A stretch of 33,157 nucleotides of DNA. Origin: Clostridium sp. (GTDB taxonomy: Bacteria > Bacillota > Clostridia > Clostridiales > Clostridiaceae). Position 1 is the stretch's first letter; each line of letters begins with the position of its first letter. The stretch spans positions 1 through 33,157 of the forward strand of contig NZ_JAENWM010000041.1 of NCBI RefSeq assembly GCF_016650035.1, written 5' to 3'. The notes under the pieces were generated by a model. That model was not told the origin of the DNA, did no database searches, and was given only the letters and a program-made list of their open reading frames with translations. The position numbers and the translations under genes are program-made. Shown here in pieces: positions 10,214 to 22,010 of this stretch.

Positions 10214-10984
10214 TTATATTTCTTGTTTTTCAAATATAAGCCATCCAGCTAATACTAATATTACTGACATAGCCATTACACCTAATACTGGTTTCAAAAA
10301 TTCAATGTTATTTGAACCTGTTAATATATCACTTGCAGTAGATACTAATTCATTTATTGATATAGACTTTAAGAATCCACCTAAATATTGTGGAACTGTA
10401 CTTAAAATAATATATACACCACAGGCTGCACCACCCACAGCTACTTGACTCTTAAGGAAACTTGAAAAGAACATAGTAATTGCAATAATTAGTATTAAGT
10501 TAGGTAAATACACCGTAGTACCTAGCATTATATATGACCAACTTACTTTACCAAATAAAACTTCAATGTAATATGCACTAAAACCAATAGCTATATACAT
10601 ACTGCAGATAATAAGTATAGAATATGAAAAGAATTTCGCGAAATAGTACCTTGCACGTCCTATTGGCTTTACCAATACCATTGCTGTTACTTCTAATGAA
10701 CGTTCACCTGCAATTGTTCCCATTAACATTAATATAATTACAATAGTACCCATTTGCCCAAACTGACCTAGTAAGGACCTCAAAACATCATTAGTAGAAG
10801 GTGGAGCAATTTTAATTACAGTACCCGCGGGTAAATTTGATGCATTTTTTAGTAAGGTTGGAAGCATCTTCATTGTTATTGGTTGCATGAGTGCTAATAG
10901 TATAAAAACCAAAGGAATAATTATAATTTTATAAGTTTTACATAACTCTTTTATTTCTTTATTTAACATCGGTAATTTCATCAT
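10214..10984 (-). CDS. yxlG: ABC transporter permease of the SigY operon (YxlG-like)
   Basis: A 256-residue ABC-2 type permease with six predicted transmembrane helices. A large extracellular loop lies between helices 1 and 2 (about residues 40-70), and the cytoplasmic coupling segment is around GERSLEVTAMVLVKPIGRARYYFAKF, given here in part only as the family-typical RSLEVTAMVLVKP. It pairs with the ATPase encoded just upstream, whose last 26 bp it overlaps. ATG 10984 and 10981 are both possible, following AAAGGTGG. Its position at the end of a sigma factor/YxlC/D/E/F series matches B. subtilis yxlG. The exported substrate is unknown. An AT-only hairpin at 10152-10174 is the only terminator-like structure downstream. 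Confidence 0.85.
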   Translation of the reverse strand: MMKLPMLNKEIKELCKTYKIIIIPLVFILLALMQPITMKMLPTLLKNASNLPAGTVIKIAPPSTNDVLRSLLGQFGQMGTIVIILMLMGTIAGERSLEVTAMVLVKPIGRARYYFAKFFSYSILIICSMYIAIGFSAYYIEVLFGKVSWSYIMLGTTVYLPNLILIIAITMFFSSFLKSQVAVGGAACGVYIILSTVPQYLGGFLKSISINELVSTASDILTGSNNIEFLKPVLGVMAMSVILVLAGWLIFEKQEI

Positions 10985-11900
10985 TAATACCCACCACCTT
11001 TAAGAAAATGTTCTCCAATGTCATTCCGCTCACTTGGTATGAAGTTAAGCTTAATTGCTCATTTACAACTAATTTAAGAAATTCTGTACATGCCTTTTCT
11101 AATTGATTTGTACTGATTTTGAATTTATTTCCTTCAACTTCTACTCTTGACACCCATGTTTTATTCTTTAGTAAATTCACTACATTTTTATCTTCTGACT
11201 CAATTGTAAATTCTATGGTTTTCTCAGCATATTTTTTAATTATTTCATCCATAGAACCCGATAATATTACAGTTCCTTTATTAATTATTATAATTTTATC
11301 CGCAACTCTAGCAATATCATCAATAATATGTGTTGATATAAATATAGTTATTTTATCTTTTAAGTCTTCTATTATATTAAGCACGTCATAACGTCCCTGT
11401 GGGTCTAATGAGGATACTGGTTCATCAAGTATAAGCAATTTAGGATTGTTAATAAGCGCTTGAGCTATTGCCAAACGTTGTTTCATCCCACCACTATATC
11501 CCCCAATTTTTCGTTTTCTCTCTTCCCATATTCCACAGGTTTTTAGCAGTTCCTCACTTCTCGCCTTTATAGTTTGTTTGTCCAACTTGAACATAGATCC
11601 AACCCATTCCATCCATTCTTCACCAGTCATATAATTATAAAATTTCGGTGTCTGAGGACAATAGCCTAATTCTTTTCTAATCTTCTTAATGTCCTTACTT
11701 ACGTCGTACCCAACTACCTCTACTTTGCCAGAAGTAGGTGAAGCGAGTCCAGCTAATATACGTATGATGGTAGTTTTACCTGCACCATTAGGTCCTAAAA
11801 ATCCAATGCATCCAGTGCCTTCTATACTAAATGTTATATTTTCTAATGCTTTTTTATCTTTATAATTTTTAGATACTCCCTCACAATTAATAATTCTCAT
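10959..11900 (-). CDS. yxlF: ABC transporter ATP-binding protein of the SigY operon (YxlF-like)
   Basis: A 313-residue ATPase that energises the YxlG-like permease. Walker A is GPNGAGKT (36-43), the Q-loop is in YCPQTPKFYNYMTGEEW, the signature is YSGGMKQR, Walker B is LLILDEPVSSLDP and the switch His is in ISTHIIDD. The C-terminal about 90 residues form the accessory domain typical of ABC-2 drug/antibiotic exporters. ATG 11900 follows AAAAAGGGAG. It is 17 bp downstream of the yxlE-like gene and overlaps the permease gene, indicating coupled translation of the two transporter subunits. Confidence 0.9.
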   Translation of the reverse strand: MRIINCEGVSKNYKDKKALENITFSIEGTGCIGFLGPNGAGKTTIIRILAGLASPTSGKVEVVGYDVSKDIKKIRKELGYCPQTPKFYNYMTGEEWMEWVGSMFKLDKQTIKARSEELLKTCGIWEERKRKIGGYSGGMKQRLAIAQALINNPKLLILDEPVSSLDPQGRYDVLNIIEDLKDKITIFISTHIIDDIARVADKIIIINKGTVILSGSMDEIIKKYAEKTIEFTIESEDKNVVNLLKNKTWVSRVEVEGNKFKISTNQLEKACTEFLKLVVNEQLSLTSYQVSGMTLENIFLKVVGINDEITDVK

Positions 11901-13485: not shown

Positions 13486-14046
13486 TTAATTAATTTTACT
13501 ATTATTATTTAAAATTCTTTTTTCTTTCAAATAATATGCTATACACACCATAAGACAAGGCGCTGCTAGAGCAAATGAAATAGTCCCTATGATGATTAAT
13601 ATATTTTTTACAATGGTTCCATCTATTTTACTTTTTAGTGAAAATTCAATTAGGTTCACAAAAATTAATATTACTATAGATATAATTGCTGTTTTTTTAT
13701 AGACGTGTTTTGATTTTTCATACTTACTTAAATAGTTCTCTTTTTCAGTGTATATTGAAACAGTTTCAGGTGGGGCTGAAAAAAAATGATACGGACCAAA
13801 AGAACACATATGTTCCCAGCCACTACTCTGAAACACCTCAAAATACTCGTTATCATCTTTACTTAATTCTTTATAATCCATGGAATAAACTATTTCCTTT
13901 GGTTGACCTTTTACTAATTTATACCTAGATAAAGACATTTCTTTAAGTATCCACCCCTCTTTCGCCATTTGACTTAATTTTCTCATTGCTCTATCTTCAT
14001 CAAAAGCTAGCCCCATATTCATTATATACTTATTTTCCTTTTTCAT
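13486..14046 (-). CDS. DUF2812 domain membrane protein
   Basis: A 186-residue protein. The N-terminal about 95 residues form a DUF2812-like domain (early AMRKLSQMAKEGWIL, later FQSSGWEHMCSFGPYHFF). Two transmembrane helices follow (about 113-133 and 148-172), then a basic tail. DUF2812 proteins are usually encoded beside a PadR regulator, as here, and their function is unknown. It overlaps the end of the padR gene. The frame could start at 14055, but GAGGGGG abuts that ATG; ATG 14046 has the right nine-base spacing. It may be the target or effector of the PadR switch. Confidence 0.8.
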   Translation of the reverse strand: MKKENKYIMNMGLAFDEDRAMRKLSQMAKEGWILKEMSLSRYKLVKGQPKEIVYSMDYKELSKDDNEYFEVFQSSGWEHMCSFGPYHFFSAPPETVSIYTEKENYLSKYEKSKHVYKKTAIISIVILIFVNLIEFSLKSKIDGTIVKNILIIIGTISFALAAPCLMVCIAYYLKEKRILNNNSKIN

Positions 14047-14386
14047 TAATATCATCCCCCTCTAAATACTTTAAAGCTTCCTCTCCATGTCTTACCATAG
14101 TTATTCTTCTCTTAATGTCTTTTTTCAATATTTCTTTACCCTTCAAAGTTAGTGTATATGTTTTACGTCTTTCCTCATCATCTTCTAGTAATAGGATCAA
14201 ATCTGCATTTTGTAATTTTTTTATAATTGTATAAAGACTGGCTGGGCCTATTAGCATTTCACCCTTTGAAAATTTTTCGATCTCCTGCATTATGCCATAA
14301 CCATGCATAGGCTTCACAAGTGTCAGTAAAATGCAGTAGGTTGAATCCGTTAAAATGTCCTCATCTAGTGCTTTTCCTCTAGCCAT
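14030..14386 (-). CDS. PadR family transcriptional regulator
   Basis: A 118-residue winged-helix repressor. MHGYGIMQEIEKFS followed by PASLYTIIKKLQNADLI and the wing DEERRKTYTLTLKGKEIL are the PadR hallmarks; the short C-terminal helix for dimerisation follows. Family members sense toxic small molecules or envelope stress and repress the neighbouring membrane-protein gene. ATG 14386 follows AAGGAGG. A consensus promoter with an inverted-repeat operator lies directly upstream, so autorepression together with the DUF2812 gene is likely. Confidence 0.92.
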   Translation of the reverse strand: MARGKALDEDILTDSTYCILLTLVKPMHGYGIMQEIEKFSKGEMLIGPASLYTIIKKLQNADLILLLEDDEERRKTYTLTLKGKEILKKDIKRRITMVRHGEEALKYLEGDDINEKGK

Positions 14387-14530: not shown

Positions 14531-14561
14531 ACAAAAAAAAACTCTTAAAAATTAAGAGTTT
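14531..14561 (-). terminator. Terminator of the helicase/nuclease cassette
   Basis: On the minus strand AAACTCTTAA (14561-14552) pairs with TTAAGAGTTT (14548-14539) around three bases. A run of T residues to about 14533 follows, just after the nuclease stop codon. Confidence 0.88.
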
Positions 14562-14563
14562 AT

Positions 14564-15316
14564 TTACATATCCTTTAGAACAAAAGCATCACATACGTGA
14601 TTACCTCCAGCAAATTCACAATACTTACACTGCTTACTATAAAGTTCACTGTTAAATTTGGTATCAAAATCATAATTATCCAATCTGCGTATTAGCTCCA
14701 TAATTTTTTCTTCATGAATTCTATGAACACTTTCTGAATAATTAATAGTAATAATGTCATCTTCGAATTGAGGTTGCCAAAATTTCATACTTATATTTTC
14801 AATAGGTGTATCTTTACTAAATATTTCTAAAGACCTTTCTCCTATTATATACATATAAATAATAGCTTGCATTCTTTTACACACTTCTTTATAGTCCAGT
14901 TTCCGTTTCTCTGTTTTCCAGTCCCAAATTTCTATTTTATTATTCGGTTTAATAATTATCAAATCATACTTTGCCTGAATTCTAATATTGTCTTTCCTCA
15001 TTTTAATTTCATATTCCGGTAAATATATATTTTCATCTGAAATCGGAAATTTTTCTTTTAATGAATTATACCAATTTATAAGTTCAGTATTTTTATTATC
15101 TATGCTCACAGGAATACTCGAAAAATATCGTTGACAGATAAGATGAAAATCTAGTCCAATGTTCATATTTTCATAATAATCCTCATCATTTATTGAATCG
15201 TTTTTCCATCTAATATTATCCAAATACTTTATCTTAAATTTTAATGGGCATTTATCAAAAGTGTTTAATAAATTTTGACTATAGTAGATGTGATTTAATT
15301 CTCTAATGTCTAACAT
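14564..15316 (-). CDS. Stand-alone PD-(D/E)XK nuclease with Fe-S cysteine motif (AddB/Cas4-like)
   Basis: A 250-residue RecB-type nuclease. Motif I His58 (GLDFHLICQRY), Asp118 (QAKYDLIII), the D132-W-K134 catalytic pair (EIWDWKTEK) and the QAxxY-like MQAIIYMY (150-156) are all present. Cys23 (DKCPLKFK), Cys230, Cys233 and Cys242 (QCKYCEFAGGNHVC) have the one-plus-three spacing of the iron-sulfur cluster in AddB and Cas4 nucleases. It lacks any helicase domain. Its ATG overlaps the end of the UvrD-like helicase gene (AAAGGGGTG precedes it), so the two are translated together. It is likely the nuclease arm of a three-protein DNA-end processing complex. No cas genes are nearby. Confidence 0.88.
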   Translation of the reverse strand: MLDIRELNHIYYSQNLLNTFDKCPLKFKIKYLDNIRWKNDSINDEDYYENMNIGLDFHLICQRYFSSIPVSIDNKNTELINWYNSLKEKFPISDENIYLPEYEIKMRKDNIRIQAKYDLIIIKPNNKIEIWDWKTEKRKLDYKEVCKRMQAIIYMYIIGERSLEIFSKDTPIENISMKFWQPQFEDDIITINYSESVHRIHEEKIMELIRRLDNYDFDTKFNSELYSKQCKYCEFAGGNHVCDAFVLKDM

Positions 15317-17517
15317 TTACCATCACCCCTTTGTAAGTGTATGTATCTTTGAAGAACATTAAAATAGTGCGAAGGTTTATTTTCATTCCATTTCCCTTCA
15401 TTAGATTTAGATGCCATTAAAATCAAATATTCTTTTGCTCTAGTTATTCCTACATATAAAAGTCGTATTTTCTCATTTATAATTTGTATTTTCGCTTCTT
15501 TAAGCGGATCTTCACAAATACTATTCCCTAAAATTTTTGCAATCTCAGCTTTGCAAAGCACTGTTGGATTTTTAAATTCGTATTTTAAATAATAATAGTC
15601 TTTAAATTTATCTGTTGTCATATATGGGTATTGATAGGATGTTATATTTAATATTAATACGCAATCCCATTCCAGACCTTTAGCTTTGTGACAAGTAGAT
15701 ACTGTTATTCTATCAGGAGAGGGCTCATATCCTTCTAGGTCATAAATTATACCTGAAATAAGATTTAATATACTGTTTTTTTCATCTAGCAGCTGATCTG
15801 CTAGATATCCTAAGGAAAATCCACTATTATCTTTAGACTTTAATCTAATATAAGATGCAACCGCCTCTGCCATTGCTTTGTTTTCAAGACTAAAATTTAA
15901 AATATCGCTAATATGTAAGATCAGTCTATCTAAATGTGTTTGTGGATATTCAAATATAGTTTTAATTTGTTCCATGGACTTTAGAAATTCCTTATACACC
16001 TTTGAATTTAAAATATCTCGTGGAATATCTTTAGAATTTATTATTCCTCCCTCAGGATACATCAGCTTTTCTATTTCGTAATTTTGTATAAAATCGAACA
16101 ATTTTTCGCTTTCTGAATCTCGCTCTTCTATAAACACATTCTGAATTAAATTTTTAAATTTAACACTATCTTGCGGCCTTGAAATAAAATGTAATAGACA
16201 TCCTAAAGTATTCGTAACTTTAATTCTTTTATCTGATTTATTTGATAGTTCATCACACCCAAGATTTAAAGCTCTGAGTTTATCCGCTATTTCTGTAACC
16301 TGATTATTATATGGAACTAATATTGCACAGGTTTTACTTGGATGTTTTTCTTTAAATTTCTGTGCTAAATTAATAGCCCTTTCCATTTCATCTTCACTTG
16401 AGCTACAAACCATAGCACTTATTCCATAATTAAAAGCATTAGATGTTCTGATTTCAAAGTTCTCTGTGAGACTTTTAATCTCTTGGTTTACTAATGCGCC
16501 TCTACATTTTTCTTCTGCATGATGATTATTTGTAAACTGGACTAATTCGTTTGCTAAATTAATAATATTATTTGTACTACGACCTGCCATAAACATTTGA
16601 AACACTTCATTTGCATTATCACTAAACTCTCTGAAAAATTTTGGATCTGATGCTGTAAATGTTCCTGTTATACTTTGATTAACATCCCCTACTCTAACTA
16701 AATTGCCGCTTTTATGGGAGATTAGACTAAGTATTTTTCCCTGGATTAAATTTGAGTCTTGACACTCATCTTCAAATACAAATGTATATTTTTTTTGTAG
16801 TTTTCCTCTAAGTACATCATCATTTTTTAAAAGCTTGTATGCAAGGATTAACAAATCATTATAATCTATATATCCCTCTTTTTTTAGAGTTTTAGTGTAG
16901 GAATCATAAATTTCAGATATATATACTAAAATACTATTTTCATTTAAATATTTTAATTCATCTTTTAATTTTTCTGGAGAAATGTCATTTATCTTAAGTT
17001 CACCAATAATTGTATCCACTGTTTTGAAGAAATCATTCCACCAATCATTTTGTTTTCCTTCGTATTTATTTATGGCTTTATCTGATATCATAGCCTTAAA
17101 TACACTTTCTCCTCCTTTTCTTCTCCACTGTGAAATGCAATTGTTTAAGTACAAACTCTTATTTACATCATCCAATATTTGAAAATCTTCATTAACTCCC
17201 ATTACATCTGGTCTTTCTTTTAAAATCTTTAGTGCCAAGCTATGTATAGTCATAACTTCATAATCATTACTTGCAGTTATACCAGTATTTTGTAACACTC
17301 CTGAAATTCTATGTTTAAAATTATTCACTGCACTATTCATAAAAGTCACTATAAGTATTTTACCAGGTTTATGAACTTTATCTTTTATAATTTCACATAC
17401 TAGATTACATATAATAAAGGTTTTGCCCGCTCCTGGAACTGCTGGCACTGCCATAGTTCCCCCTCGGTATTCCATTATAGGCTTTTGATCATCCCTATAG
17501 ATTATTTCCTTCAACAT
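15310..17517 (-). CDS. UvrD/Rep-family ATP-dependent DNA helicase
   Basis: A 735-residue superfamily 1A helicase with all motifs intact: Q motif (YRDDQKPIMEYRGG), Walker A PGAGKT, Ia VTFMNSAVNNFKHR, II FEDECQDSNLIQ, III VGDVNQSITGTF, IV AGRSTNNIINLANEL, V TCHKAKGLEWD and VI LLYVGITRAKEYLIL. It should move 3'-5' on single-stranded DNA. Unlike AddA or RecB it has no C-terminal nuclease; a separate nuclease gene overlaps its end. The frame extends to GTG 17532, within the preceding gene, but GAGGTG at about 17526-17521 favours ATG 17517 (close spacing) as the start. It is the middle gene of the cassette and the only intact motor in it. Confidence 0.9.
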   Translation of the reverse strand: MLKEIIYRDDQKPIMEYRGGTMAVPAVPGAGKTFIICNLVCEIIKDKVHKPGKILIVTFMNSAVNNFKHRISGVLQNTGITASNDYEVMTIHSLALKILKERPDVMGVNEDFQILDDVNKSLYLNNCISQWRRKGGESVFKAMISDKAINKYEGKQNDWWNDFFKTVDTIIGELKINDISPEKLKDELKYLNENSILVYISEIYDSYTKTLKKEGYIDYNDLLILAYKLLKNDDVLRGKLQKKYTFVFEDECQDSNLIQGKILSLISHKSGNLVRVGDVNQSITGTFTASDPKFFREFSDNANEVFQMFMAGRSTNNIINLANELVQFTNNHHAEEKCRGALVNQEIKSLTENFEIRTSNAFNYGISAMVCSSSEDEMERAINLAQKFKEKHPSKTCAILVPYNNQVTEIADKLRALNLGCDELSNKSDKRIKVTNTLGCLLHFISRPQDSVKFKNLIQNVFIEERDSESEKLFDFIQNYEIEKLMYPEGGIINSKDIPRDILNSKVYKEFLKSMEQIKTIFEYPQTHLDRLILHISDILNFSLENKAMAEAVASYIRLKSKDNSGFSLGYLADQLLDEKNSILNLISGIIYDLEGYEPSPDRITVSTCHKAKGLEWDCVLILNITSYQYPYMTTDKFKDYYYLKYEFKNPTVLCKAEIAKILGNSICEDPLKEAKIQIINEKIRLLYVGITRAKEYLILMASKSNEGKWNENKPSHYFNVLQRYIHLQRGDGKC

Positions 17518-19573
17518 CTTCACCTCGCTCACTTAAAATTTCTACAAGGATATCTGAAAATATACTTTCTTGTTGATATCCATTTAAAGAATATTCACTA
17601 CCATATATATATAATTCACCGCTACATTTCCTTAAAAGTCCATGGACAACGGACATTAAAATTCCGTATATATTATTGTTTTCTTTTTCCTGCGTATAGA
17701 TATCATTAATATCCCAATTACTTCTTAATACATAGGAATTTGATAATTCCTTTATATTTCTTGAACACCACATATTGCTGTTAATATCTGTCCATATTTG
17801 GACCTTAGAACTTAAATTAGAGGTTAAATAAGTATAGGGTGACGTAAAAAGTATAGCATTATCTTGTAAAAGCTTTTCTTGAATTTCATTCAACGAACAA
17901 AATTCACTCCCTTCTCTTAGTATAAATTCTATAAATCTTTCTTCCGAAGACCTTCCTTTAAATTCTAATTTATTTAGTGTATTTACGAAACTTTCGCAGC
18001 ATTCATATAAATTTATGTAGTCCTCTATATGTTCTTTAACTTTTGGTAGCATTATAAGCACTTCTAAAAATGCACTTCTGAAAAATTCAGCTAGCGGCAC
18101 CTTGTGCTCTGAAAAGTGAATTTTATAATTTTCAATCCAATTTTTGAGTTTAATATATTTATCTACGTAAGTAGCCCCTACTCTATCTTTCACTTCATTA
18201 TTAAGCTCGGGAAGTTCGCTAGAAACTACTAACGAAGATAATAATGAACTTCTAATTGGATCTAACTGTAACATAAAAGAAAAAAAGTTTTTATAATCTT
18301 CGCCAGTTAATTTTATACTTTTATAATCATTACAGAGTACCGATAGTACTATTAATGGGTGTAAATATTCATTGTCTATAAATCTATATTTTTTTGAAGT
18401 CTCCATGATTGATATACCCAATGTTTTTGCTTTTTTCTGTAGCGCGTAGGCGATAATAAAATCATTAAACGGACAAATTACAGCTATGTCCACAGGCTTA
18501 AATCCCTGCATTAATAGCTCTTCAACTTTTAATAATATCTTCTGTACCATTTCTGATCTTAGTTGTGATGTCATATCTATATGAGCTTGTAAAAATCCAT
18601 TTATTTTTTCTTTATCGTGGTTATGTGCCCTATTATCTATTACACGTGCAAAATCAATAAATTCGTCATTGCAGCAAAAATGATCATCTAAAGTAATTTC
18701 ATGGTATTCAATATTTAATTCTTCCTTTAGATAATCAGAGTTAGCCCCATAATAACTACAGAATCCACCCTTTGGGTTATAAAATAAGTATGCCTTATCT
18801 ACATTATTAATAATCTTAAATATAAGTTCTAGCTCTGCTGGTGAAGCCTCATCTATATCATCTACAATAAGATATTTTATTTTATTTATATTACAATATC
18901 TTGCGTCCCGAAGTAAATAATTATTATAAAGGTAAAAACACAATCCATAATCTACAACGCCATTACCTAACAATTTTGATATGTAATACTGGGTTACTTC
19001 ATCCAATTGATTATAGGTTTCTTTTACTAAAAAATCATTTACCTCTAATGAATTATATAACCTGCTCCCTATTTCATTAAAAGGCACTAATGATAGTGCA
19101 GCATTATTAATGTTAGATATCAAATCTGAAGCTATTTTAGTAGAAGTTGATATTATATCACTAAAGTACCCTTTAGATGTTCTAAAATGCTCCACTAATG
19201 CTTTCATTGCATAATTTGTAGCATCAAAAGATGCAAATTCAGGCTTTAGCAAATTATTTTCTATTTTCTTACAATTCTCTACTACATAGGGCCAATAAAG
19301 TGATAGTTCTTTCCTAATAAATCCATAGTAGGAGCTTTTTCTAATCTCCCCATTGGTATTAAAAATCATATCTTTTGTCCATGTTATATTTTGATATTTG
19401 TTCATAAACATGCACAATATACTTGTGCTTTTAATGTTTTCGTTTTCTATCATGTTCCTGTATTTAGAAATTGCCAGCGTTGTTTTTCCACTAGCAGAAT
19501 TCCCTTTAACTAAGATACATTGCTGTGTGAATTTATTTTCATTTATTATTTCGTTAGCTGCTGCATATTTCAT
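17495..19573 (-). CDS. Degenerate UvrD-like ATPase (AddB-type pseudo-helicase), first gene of the cassette
   Basis: A 692-residue protein with a superfamily 1 helicase outline but eroded motifs. Walker A is good (24-32, GNSASGKTT). Motif II reads VDDIDE at 237-242 instead of VDExQD. Motif III reads YNPKGGFCSYYGA (265-277) where GDPxQ...RGA is expected. Motifs V and VI are unrecognisable near ILFTSPYTYLTS. It therefore probably binds, and may slowly hydrolyse, ATP without being a motor, like the helicase-like half of AddB. It has no cysteine cluster or nuclease domain at its C-terminus. ATG 19573 follows GAGGTG. It overlaps the helicase gene by 23 bp, and all three cassette genes form one unit ending at 14531. 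A structural partner of the helicase and nuclease is the simplest reading. Confidence 0.8.
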   Translation of the reverse strand: MKYAAANEIINENKFTQQCILVKGNSASGKTTLAISKYRNMIENENIKSTSILCMFMNKYQNITWTKDMIFNTNGEIRKSSYYGFIRKELSLYWPYVVENCKKIENNLLKPEFASFDATNYAMKALVEHFRTSKGYFSDIISTSTKIASDLISNINNAALSLVPFNEIGSRLYNSLEVNDFLVKETYNQLDEVTQYYISKLLGNGVVDYGLCFYLYNNYLLRDARYCNINKIKYLIVDDIDEASPAELELIFKIINNVDKAYLFYNPKGGFCSYYGANSDYLKEELNIEYHEITLDDHFCCNDEFIDFARVIDNRAHNHDKEKINGFLQAHIDMTSQLRSEMVQKILLKVEELLMQGFKPVDIAVICPFNDFIIAYALQKKAKTLGISIMETSKKYRFIDNEYLHPLIVLSVLCNDYKSIKLTGEDYKNFFSFMLQLDPIRSSLLSSLVVSSELPELNNEVKDRVGATYVDKYIKLKNWIENYKIHFSEHKVPLAEFFRSAFLEVLIMLPKVKEHIEDYINLYECCESFVNTLNKLEFKGRSSEERFIEFILREGSEFCSLNEIQEKLLQDNAILFTSPYTYLTSNLSSKVQIWTDINSNMWCSRNIKELSNSYVLRSNWDINDIYTQEKENNNIYGILMSVVHGLLRKCSGELYIYGSEYSLNGYQQESIFSDILVEILSERGEDVEGNNL

Positions 19574-19673: not shown

Positions 19674-20723
19674 TTATTTATCAGATGATAATACCTTAAG
19701 TAATAGCTTAGCTATAAAATAACCTATAATAGTGAATATGACAGCCCCAATGGTAAATGTGCTCAACCTTCCCCTTTCATAATAAATACTCCCTGCCAAA
19801 AGCCCTAAGCAGATAGCAAAACCAATGCTAAAGATAGGTTCTAAATTTTTAAAGGATATTAGTTTTAAATTATATTCTAAGCTTCTCTTTTTATAGGATA
19901 CATATGATAAGTACAAAAATAAACAAGTTAATATAAAAAGTATTAATAATTTTAACTTATAATCTATATAATAAAAAGTTCTATACAGTTCTTTACCGCT
20001 ATTTGCTGTATTTTCAAGCCAGCGCTCTTGAGTTAAATTATAACTATAAATATTTAACCAAGGTCCTATTTTATCAACAATTATATAAAAATTTTCCATA
20101 TAGAAGCGATCAATTAAACTCTGCAACACCAATGTTATAAAGTATGGCACTATAAGTATTATTCCACCTACTATACCTGCAACTATGCTATTTCCCATAA
20201 CCGTTTGTGCAAGCATAATAAAAGTAAAAATGCAAATGTACTGAAATATATCCATAAGAACCCATATAACTATATCAGAGTATGGGTTTAATACAGTGTC
20301 AAGGTTGTTAATATTTGCAACATATAATAAGCTTAAGAATATATATGTTACTACAAAACTTATAAGGATACTTAGCACCCCAACAATCCATTTATTGAGT
20401 ATTATCTCTTTCCTAGTAAAGGGCATAGAAGCTAAAAATCCCTGATTTTCACTAGCTTTTTCACCCGCAAATAAAATCATGGCGATTAATATTACAACAA
20501 ATATCATTACAAGCACATATGTACCCCGTTCATGAAGTCCGTTATTAAACCATCTATCAGTCCATACTTCACCATGTTGCTGAAAATATATTTCATTTTG
20601 ATTTAATGCGGATATAACACCATAAACCTTAAAATATAATAATATAACAATAGTTAAAAGGGTTACCCATTTTACATTTATCCATTCCTTATAGAAAAGG
20701 GCCTTATTTATAATTTTATTCAT
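19674..20723 (-). CDS. ABC-2 type transporter permease
   Basis: A 349-residue membrane protein with about eight transmembrane helices. It has a long extracellular loop after helix 1 (about 35-65, with QQHGEVWTDRWFNNGLHERG) and a cytoplasmic segment ENQGFLASMPFTRKEIILNK, the coupling region typical of this permease type. It pairs with the ATPase encoded upstream, whose stop it overlaps by 8 bp; GAGGAGG precedes ATG 20723. With the GntR regulator the trio resembles the B. subtilis ytr system, which exports or senses cell-wall-active compounds. Substrate unknown. No obvious terminator hairpin follows before the helicase cassette 100 bp away, so some read-through into it is possible. Confidence 0.85.
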   Translation of the reverse strand: MNKIINKALFYKEWINVKWVTLLTIVILLYFKVYGVISALNQNEIYFQQHGEVWTDRWFNNGLHERGTYVLVMIFVVILIAMILFAGEKASENQGFLASMPFTRKEIILNKWIVGVLSILISFVVTYIFLSLLYVANINNLDTVLNPYSDIVIWVLMDIFQYICIFTFIMLAQTVMGNSIVAGIVGGIILIVPYFITLVLQSLIDRFYMENFYIIVDKIGPWLNIYSYNLTQERWLENTANSGKELYRTFYYIDYKLKLLILFILTCLFLYLSYVSYKKRSLEYNLKLISFKNLEPIFSIGFAICLGLLAGSIYYERGRLSTFTIGAVIFTIIGYFIAKLLLKVLSSDK

Positions 20724-21606
20724 TTTTATCCTCCTCTTCTACGAAATATATAAAGATATCCTCAAGACTCATATTAAGAATTTCTATAAAGTCAGCACCC
20801 ATATCATAAAGTCTTTTTTTAAATTCTTTTGTGTAATTTTTAGTAATTATATAGTTTACTCTTCCTATAGTCTCAATCCTAATTACTCCCTCAAGAGAAG
20901 ATAGATTTTTATGCGTGTCCTCATTGTCCTTAAATACAACTTGAAGTTTTATTAAGCTATTTTTAGCTTCTTCTATAGAGCTCATGTATTTTATTTCACC
21001 ATTTTTAATTATTGCTACTTTATCACAAATTCTCTCGATATGTTCTAGATGATGTGAGGAAATAAATACAGTTATACCTCTTGAAGCCACTTCATCTACA
21101 ATAATGGACATTATTTCTTTTTTAATCACAGGATCAAGGCCGGATGTGGGCTCATCAAGTATTAAAATATCTGGCTTTAAGCTTAAGTTTAAAAGAATAG
21201 CTACTCTCATCTTCATACCTTTGGAAAGCTCTCTTATTCTTCTCTTCACAGGAATTTTAAATTTTTCATTAAGTTCATCAAATCTCTCCTGTGAAAAATT
21301 ATTATAGGTTTTCTTATAAAAGTTCATAAGTTCCTTTACTTTGAAAGATGAAAAATATTGATTTTCATCGGATACATAACCTATCCTCTGTTTTACTATA
21401 TTATTGTCAAATACCTCTTCATCATTTATTAATATTTCCCCTTCATTAACTCTATAAATACCTGTTAGGCATTTTATTAATGTAGTTTTACCCGCACCAT
21501 TCTCGCCAATTATTCCAAATATACTCCCCTTGTTTACATGTAAATCTACATTCCTTAGAATATATTTACCATCTATCTGTTTGCTCACATTTTTTATATC
21601 AATCAA
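20716..21606 (-). CDS. ABC transporter ATP-binding protein (YtrB-like)
   Basis: A 296-residue ATPase: Walker A GENGAGKT (34-41), Q-loop in SDENQYF, signature LSKGMKMR, Walker B ILILDEPTSGLDP, switch region ISSHHLEH. The C-terminal 75 residues form the accessory domain seen in ABC-2 exporters of the YtrB/BcrA type. It starts at TTG 21606 behind GGGGG; no ATG is available near the family N-terminus. It lies 32 bp after the GntR gene and overlaps the permease gene, which supports one three-gene operon repressed by the GntR protein. Confidence 0.9.
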   Translation of the reverse strand: MIDIKNVSKQIDGKYILRNVDLHVNKGSIFGIIGENGAGKTTLIKCLTGIYRVNEGEILINDEEVFDNNIVKQRIGYVSDENQYFSSFKVKELMNFYKKTYNNFSQERFDELNEKFKIPVKRRIRELSKGMKMRVAILLNLSLKPDILILDEPTSGLDPVIKKEIMSIIVDEVASRGITVFISSHHLEHIERICDKVAIIKNGEIKYMSSIEEAKNSLIKLQVVFKDNEDTHKNLSSLEGVIRIETIGRVNYIITKNYTKEFKKRLYDMGADFIEILNMSLEDIFIYFVEEEDKNE

Positions 21607-21638: not shown

Positions 21639-22010
21639 TTAAAACTCACTATAAATTTCATTAAGTATATCAATTAACGTGCCCTTATCAACTCCTATAT
21701 AATGTGCTTCTATAATTATTTTCTTCATATGTTCTTTTATTTCTCTCATCTTTTCTGCATCCATGATAGGTTTAAAATTCTCTACTACAAAGGTTCCTTT
21801 TCCTCTTATAACTTCAATTGCCTTCATTCGCTCTAGCTCAATATATGCTTTGCTTATAGTATTAGGATTGATTGTTATAAGCGAGGCAAGTTCCCTTACA
21901 GAAGGCAGTTTATCCCCTGGCTTTAATATTCCTTTTATTATGTTTTCCTTTACTTTCTCAATAATCTGTTCATAAATAGGCTTACTGCTTCTGCTGTCGA
22001 TATTTATCAA
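21639..22010 (-). CDS. GntR family transcriptional regulator, YtrA subfamily
   Basis: A 123-residue short GntR regulator. The winged helix is residues about 10-75: IYEQIIEKVKENIIKG, then LPSVRELASLITINPNTISK, then ELERMKAIEVIRGKGTFV. A C-terminal about 45-residue helical tail replaces the large effector domain, which is diagnostic of the YtrA group. Such proteins repress an adjacent ABC exporter operon and release it when cell-wall antibiotics or related stress occur. It starts at TTG 22010 behind AAGGTG. A perfect 8-bp-arm inverted repeat lies between its promoter and start, indicating autorepression. Confidence 0.92.
   Translation of the reverse strand: MINIDSRSSKPIYEQIIEKVKENIIKGILKPGDKLPSVRELASLITINPNTISKAYIELERMKAIEVIRGKGTFVVENFKPIMDAEKMREIKEHMKKIIIEAHYIGVDKGTLIDILNEIYSEF

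Follow-up and report, generated by a model that had tools for sequence, protein, structure and literature searches.

Three genes of a Clostridium operon resemble an AddAB-type helicase-nuclease divided into separate proteins

Introduction

What do a disabled helicase, an intact helicase and a stand-alone nuclease do together when a bacterium encodes them in a single operon? Could they be the parts of a familiar machine, distributed over separate proteins? The question is posed by a stretch of 33,157 nucleotides from Clostridium sp. (contig NZ_JAENWM010000041.1 of assembly GCF_016650035.1; below, the window), whose minus strand carries, at 14564-19573, one operon of three genes that we call ps, hel and nuc and, collectively, the trio. 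The host genome, of which the window is contig 156, measures 3.97 Mb and is rated 100% complete. Judging by sequences and modelled folds, the three proteins probably form one three-subunit complex, an AddAB-type helicase-nuclease that processes double-strand DNA ends. In sequence and predicted structure its parts correspond to an AddB cut in two and an AddA without its nuclease.

Results

A dead helicase, a motor and a nuclease

The Walker A motif of ps is intact (GNSASGKTT), and the motif II position reads VDDIDE where helicases carry DExxQD. Among 31 aligned relatives the DE.QD form of motif II, motif V and motif VI are each found in none, and motif III in one; Walker A is present in 16 of the 31, some rows of the alignment beginning downstream of it. 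This agrees with the original prediction, made from the window's sequence alone, that the first gene keeps Walker A, has VDDIDE for motif II and has lost motifs III, V and VI. The same prediction staked itself on structural similarity to AddB or UvrD, and such similarity is found twice over: the ps model is a complete UvrD/AddB fold, AddB-like across about 600 residues by comparison of predicted structures, and the ps profile aligns collinearly with the N-terminal half of AddB (hhalign, E 5.7e-7). ps lies below every Pfam and NCBIfam cut-off, has no match to NCBIfam addB at E 1, and shows no PF04257 (RecC) among its Pfam matches up to E 10. Two cyanobacterial ps, the ps of Salinibacter and one from family f55 are likewise below all Pfam cut-offs, and one cyanobacterial ps and the Salinibacter ps gave no NCBIfam match at E 0.01. 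The closest named relatives, from Clostridium algoriphilum and C. tagluense, are 78% identical.

The second protein, hel, is the intact UvrD helicase without nuclease that had been predicted. Motifs II, III, V and VI are present in all 19 aligned rows, Pfam assigns a UvrD N domain (E 2e-47) and a UvrD C domain (E 3e-25), and the Pfam scan shows no nuclease domain. Its signature sequence is EDE[AC]QDS. In a quick tree with two long paralogue branches, a branch with SH-aLRT 100 sets 30 trio helicases apart from PcrA and AddA. Against NCBIfam addA, hel scores 121.7 bits, far below the cut-off of 707.65.

For nuc, the expectation of a PD-(D/E)XK nuclease with one-plus-three cysteines and no helicase is borne out by a PF12705 match (E 3.6e-21) and by residues invariant in 22 of 22 aligned rows: C23, C230, C233 and C242, together with H58, E101, D118, D132 and K134. 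The protein matches the nuclease domains of AdnA and AddB, and its modelled fold is AddB/AdnA-like. The Cas4 model TIGR00372 (cut-off 65 bits) gives the window nuc 15.8 bits and the nuc of the 'Candidatus Melainabacteria' locus L104 64.7 bits. One Clostridium relative has a second, shortened nuc (131 aa; L047:1179-1574) at a distance of about 5 kb from its trio.

The open reading frames (ORFs) bear out the predicted layout of three overlapping genes on one strand (Table 1). ps and hel overlap by 38 bp, or by 23 bp if the alternative hel start, an ATG at 17517, is used, and hel and nuc by 7 bp. A single terminator had also been proposed, and a hairpin followed by a T run does stand after nuc (folding energy -8.4 kcal/mol, z -3.3); it is absent from a consensus terminator scan, which demands three G-C pairs. 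Promoter-like sites in the window show no excess (35, against 35.5 in shuffled sequence).

Table 1. Features of the trio operon, in window coordinates.
Feature	Position	Strand	Description
ps	17495..19573	minus	692 aa; dead SF1A helicase subunit with predicted AddB-N/RecC-like fold
hel	15310..17532	minus	740 aa from GTG 17532; intact UvrD/PcrA-type SF1A motor without nuclease
nuc	14564..15316	minus	250 aa; stand-alone RecB/AddB-family PD-(D/E)XK nuclease, 1+3 cysteine pattern
probable operon terminator	14533..14561	minus	AT-rich hairpin then T run, 3' of the nuc stop

The trio in Clostridia

Do the three genes belong together? The original prediction would have been refuted had they rarely stood together in related genomes, and they do stand together. 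ps is present in 22 of 206 genomes of the host's family (host counted) and in 12 of 17 of its genus. In 19 of 20 family loci examined the order is ps-hel-nuc, the remaining locus ending inside hel at a contig end; a further family genome, G081, is not among the 20, its contig ending beside ps. Across the class Clostridia ps occurs in 14 of 391 genomes, 12 of them additional to the family set, and 10 of the 12 loci from these other families hold the trio, L147 and L158 being cut by contig ends. The gene order is thus the same in 29 of 29 uncut Clostridia loci. A tally of 189 of 225 genomes was discarded: the matches listed beyond the 22 ps genomes scored below 40 bits and were taken for UvrD-type helicases. 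Distances in the trees of the three proteins are concordant (r 0.955, 0.878 and 0.886; 26 taxa), and none of 2000 permutations reached values as high. A phage origin was considered and rejected, as ps has no match in viral contigs or phages, and nuc none in phages; two plasmid records match ps.

A fusion of ps and hel in another lineage

A ps profile scan of a species-genome collection returned 44 loci. Fifteen belong to Clostridium; the other 29, the Gastranaerophilales-type loci, come from Gastranaerophilales/Melainabacteria and from unnamed bacteria. Of these, 28 encode ps and hel as a single ORF of 1,076-1,444 aa and one ends at a contig edge; nuc follows directly in 24 of the 28. Canonical Walker A is missing from the ps part in eight of eight aligned fusion rows; the fusion at L118 retains it. 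In at least three genomes a DUF559 domain (PF04480) sits in frame within the ps part, at a similar position (L131:7992-12326, L194:2329-7059, L195:2059-6510), perhaps as a mobile insert that preserves the reading frame.

The trio and RecC in the cyanobacterial phylum

How far does the trio extend beyond these bacteria? By cyanobacterial phylum we mean the phylum of G597, the genome of L104 (in NCBI, the Cyanobacteriota/Melainabacteria group), which GTDB, we assume, treats as one phylum. ps was matched at E 1e-9 in 226 of 292 of its genomes. In genomes of about 1.5-2.5 Mb the matching frames are long (1,132-1,580 aa); the larger genomes have a free ps of about 700 aa. All three proteins were found in 15 of 15 larger genomes, a sample made up of the clearest ps matches among larger genomes and leaving aside the weakest of the 226 (E near 1e-9). 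There hel scores 243-672 bits and reads EDEAQDS, the next helicase reaching at most 188 bits and reading VDEYQDT in those read; nuc scores 93-217 bits, with its catalytic positions kept in all 15. In 14 of the 15 no hel or nuc lies in the 6.9-19 kb around ps. All three genes stand together in G625 and G638, and ps with hel in G628; an apparent hel-nuc fusion in G628 (a 1,052-aa ORF) was rejected as an overlong reading frame with no nuc match. Among ten neighbour proteins tested, proton extrusion protein PcxA, over its cut-off, adjoins free ps in four larger genomes (L189, L190, L191 and L193). Since we take PcxA to mark cyanobacteria, the larger genomes are presumably photosynthetic.

Could ps take the place of RecC in this phylum? 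PF04257 marks 38 of 285 genomes as RecC-positive. Only five of these 38 have ps (G616, G622, G630, G644 and G664) and 33 do not, whereas ps is present in 232 of 239 genomes that are not RecC-positive and absent from seven (277 genomes; Fisher p 1e-30, calculated regardless of kinship). For this table 51 of the 66 first-round ps-negative genomes were re-tested with a wider ps profile; G829 was scored negative despite a 17-bit match (E 7.5e-4), and the match of G725 is 23.5 bits. As the RecC search drew 285 genomes and the ps search 292, at most seven genomes counted as not RecC-positive may lie outside the former. In the re-tested set hel accompanies ps, being found in 11 of 13 ps-positive genomes and in none of 40 ps-negative ones, where its absence was judged by motif reading of the best match in 17 and by score alone (below 95 bits) in 23. 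The near exclusion of ps and RecC suggests that one machine has been replaced by another. It agrees with the distribution of recBCD given in the portion of PMC5101192 consulted here, which describes Synechocystis PCC 6803 and Nostoc PCC 7120 as having neither recB(ec) nor recC, well-studied model cyanobacteria as without recB, recC or recD, and most Prochlorococcus and several marine Synechococcus as carrying recBCD.

Genes beside the trio

The commonest informative neighbour is recJ. It immediately follows nuc, in the same orientation, in G203 of family f1, in six of six uncut f55 loci and in one of two f63 loci, and also in another phylum, on plasmid pSR56 of Salinibacter ruber M8 (SRM_RS00110 to SRM_RS00125). 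In the cyanobacterial phylum it continues the trio operon in G638, lies on the same strand within 0.9 kb of nuc in 3 of 15 nuc loci (G634, G837 and G802) and stands divergently beside ps in G664. In both f60 genomes, which represent two genera, the trio runs on into addB-addA. Neither recJ nor addB-addA adjoins the trio in the window, nor in the f1 loci read apart from G203.

In the window the neighbours recognised by Pfam and NCBIfam are ABC transporters, PadR/GntR regulators, TraX, GNAT, sigma-70, FtsW/RodA-like and DbpA proteins. On either side of the trio region stands a pair of ABC-transporter genes (10214-11900 and 19674-21606), and regulators of the PadR and GntR types lie at 14030-14386 and 21639-22010, the PadR neighbour being retained in G076 (L041). 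PADLOC recognised no defence system among the ten other window proteins, its only results being similarity to ABC-ATPases and DEAD-box helicases and a single weak match to PDC-M43B. A defence-island reading of the region was rejected on this result, and the suggestion that such trios might sit near defence genes gives way to their linkage with recJ and addB-addA.

Comparison with known systems

In AdnAB of mycobacteria motor and nuclease are fused in both subunits, and AdnA holds in one chain the helicase fold and nuclease that the trio encodes as separate proteins. In Gabija the GajB helicase adjoins the GajA nuclease; the partner in the trio is a PF12705 nuclease, and no GajA match was obtained among the ten other window proteins. 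With RecBCD the trio would share a subunit in the role of RecC, and in the cyanobacterial phylum ps and RecC seldom occur in the same genome; unlike RecBCD, it has no PF04257 in ps, a nuclease not fused to the motor, and no RecD in the operon. ACE1, an Argonaute-associated protein of the Cas4 family (9iab, 9iac), has a fold close to that modelled for nuc, and nuc weakly matches Argonaute-associated Cas4-like models. A scan of 13 window proteins recognised no Argonaute protein. The idea that 9iab and 9iac are solved orthologues of the cyanobacterial nuc was rejected, since single-sequence searches with two cyanobacterial trio nucleases found nothing.

The closest likeness is to AddAB of the Bacillus subtilis type, which also combines a single active SF1A motor with a single dead SF1 helicase fold and an AddB-type nuclease with 1+3 cysteines. 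AddAB differs in joining the helicase-like and nuclease parts of AddB in one chain, where the trio has separate ORFs, and in the second, C-terminal nuclease of AddA, where hel has no nuclease domain. Neither hel nor ps reaches the NCBIfam cut-off for addA or addB. An ordinary addA and addB elsewhere in the host had been raised as a question, and the answer is yes: the host encodes an AddB that exceeds its NCBIfam cut-off, next to a long AddA, so that here the trio is additional to AddAB. The host has a further two-gene AddAB-like pair (L058, contig C29:14527-19909), an AddB-like protein of 1,021 aa (addB_Gpos 129 bits, far below cut-off) and a UvrD/AddA-like helicase of 775 aa. According to the part of PMC4824097 used here, AddB recognises Chi through its inactivated helicase fold and degrades the 5'-ended strand with its nuclease, and the AddA nuclease degrades the 3'-ended strand.

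A gene pair resembling part of the trio has been described before. Hudaiberdiev et al. (2017; PMC5704561), in the section on these genes, report unfused UvrD-like and Cas4-like (pfam12705) genes in a predicted operon, mostly in Clostridiales and outside a defence context, and suggest DNA repair. That text agrees with our hel-nuc pair at the level of description; it makes no mention of a third subunit, an AddB-like dead helicase, a spread in cyanobacteria or a link to recJ. At the level of titles and the openings of abstracts, the open-access literature gave no account of ps, the trio, the fusion, the cyanobacterial trio or the recJ link. A pair of the hel-nuc kind in Clostridiales was noted in 2017, and ps and the whole trio appear undescribed in that literature.

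Discussion

How might such a complex work? With all SF1A motifs in place, hel would pull on the 3'-ended strand and unwind the duplex. ps would replace the N-terminal half of AddB, or RecC, pairing with hel, splitting and guiding the strands, and perhaps scanning for a Chi-like sequence. nuc, with the active-site residues of the RecB family intact, would replace the C-terminal nuclease of AddB and cut the 5'-ended strand. Because there is no counterpart of the AddA nuclease for the 3' strand, the trio would resect rather than destroy both strands. RecJ, whose gene adjoins the trio in some lineages, would assist in removing the 5' strand, leaving a 3' tail for RecA. We infer a physical trimer with 1:1:1 stoichiometry. 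Where RecC is missing, as in many Cyanobacteria, the trio may serve as the chief enzyme of this type.

Several observations pull against this picture. The trio is patchy in Clostridia (22/206 family and 14/391 class genomes), L054, L056 and L185 have ps broken into two ORFs, and L147 has a split hel. Two long PF12705 proteins the size of AddA and AddB (988-1,344 aa) are present in 11 of 11 Clostridia hosts tested, and 9 of 16 Gastranaerophilales-type genomes carry another long PF12705 protein (867-1,033 aa). Four of the 28 fusion loci have no nuc next to the fused gene, and G610 (L114) encodes the fusion but yielded no short nuc at E 1e-6. The fourth cysteine is missing in 5 of 15 cyanobacterial nuc, and no hel was detectable in 2 of 13 ps-positive genomes of the re-tested set. 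In Ilyobacter polytropus, a member of the Fusobacteriota, ps (L283, on the 962 kb plasmid pILYOP01) is alone, with no hel or nuc within the 18 kb read, and carries the annotation 'UvrD-helicase domain-containing protein'. The agreement of tree distances would arise from shared descent alone. As to RecC, five genomes have both proteins, and the 33 RecC-positive genomes without ps, which span 1.6-3.7 Mb, may be largely one clade; with the exclusion so clustered, the Fisher p overstates independence.

Could the trio instead defend the cell, attacking foreign DNA as Gabija or UvrD-Cas4 fusions do? The original prediction had left end processing and defence side by side. PADLOC GajB models match hel (best E 1e-49) and weakly ps (two models, E 8e-4 and 2e-3), an Argonaute-associated Cas4-like model matches nuc (E 2e-9), the nuc fold approaches ACE1, and the trio is patchy in Clostridia and plasmid-borne in Salinibacter. 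The GajB matches would be expected of any UvrD protein, hel included, because GajB is itself a UvrD-type helicase. The PADLOC result for the other window proteins, the linkage to recJ and addB-addA, the wide presence of the trio in one phylum, and a ps with two plasmid records and no phage or viral match all speak against defence, which we seriously doubt. The end-processing half of the prediction has gained from the AddB-like fold and alignment of ps, and the defence half has lost.

A repair complex that acts elsewhere than at double-strand ends, on gaps, stalled forks, crosslinks or transformation DNA and together with RecJ of the RecFOR pathway, is unlikely but has its arguments. recJ is the commonest informative neighbour; RecJ serves gap repair as well as resection, according to the consulted portion of PMC5101192; and all Clostridia hosts tested keep the two AddA/AddB-size proteins. 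Yet the domain content is that of end-resecting enzymes, and both the near exclusion with RecC and the operon with addB-addA in two genera point to DNA ends. That ps, hel and nuc are three repair proteins which share an operon and act separately seems to us hardly credible: the dispersed genes of 14 of the 15 larger cyanobacterial genomes would fit, but the fusion of ps with hel, their presence or absence together, and the overlapping genes of Clostridia would not. A three-subunit enzyme of the AddAB type, acting at double-strand ends, remains the probable reading.

What would such an enzyme mean for these bacteria? The ps-hel fusion, the spread through the cyanobacterial phylum and the links with recJ and addB-addA go beyond what the window alone had suggested. 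We tentatively put forward, with belief and doubt nearly balanced, that the trio joins RecBCD, AddAB and AdnAB as a fourth class of bacterial enzyme for end resection, with three separate subunits, only one nuclease and RecJ as partner, and that most photosynthetic Cyanobacteria have in it their missing equivalent of RecBCD, dropped in favour of RecBCD by a small-genome, probably marine, lineage. A conserved three-gene candidate makes DNA-end processing in cyanobacteria such as Synechocystis or Nostoc directly testable by gene deletion. An AddAB cut at its domain borders, with a single nuclease, would also be a natural test of what the AddA nuclease and Chi attenuation are for.

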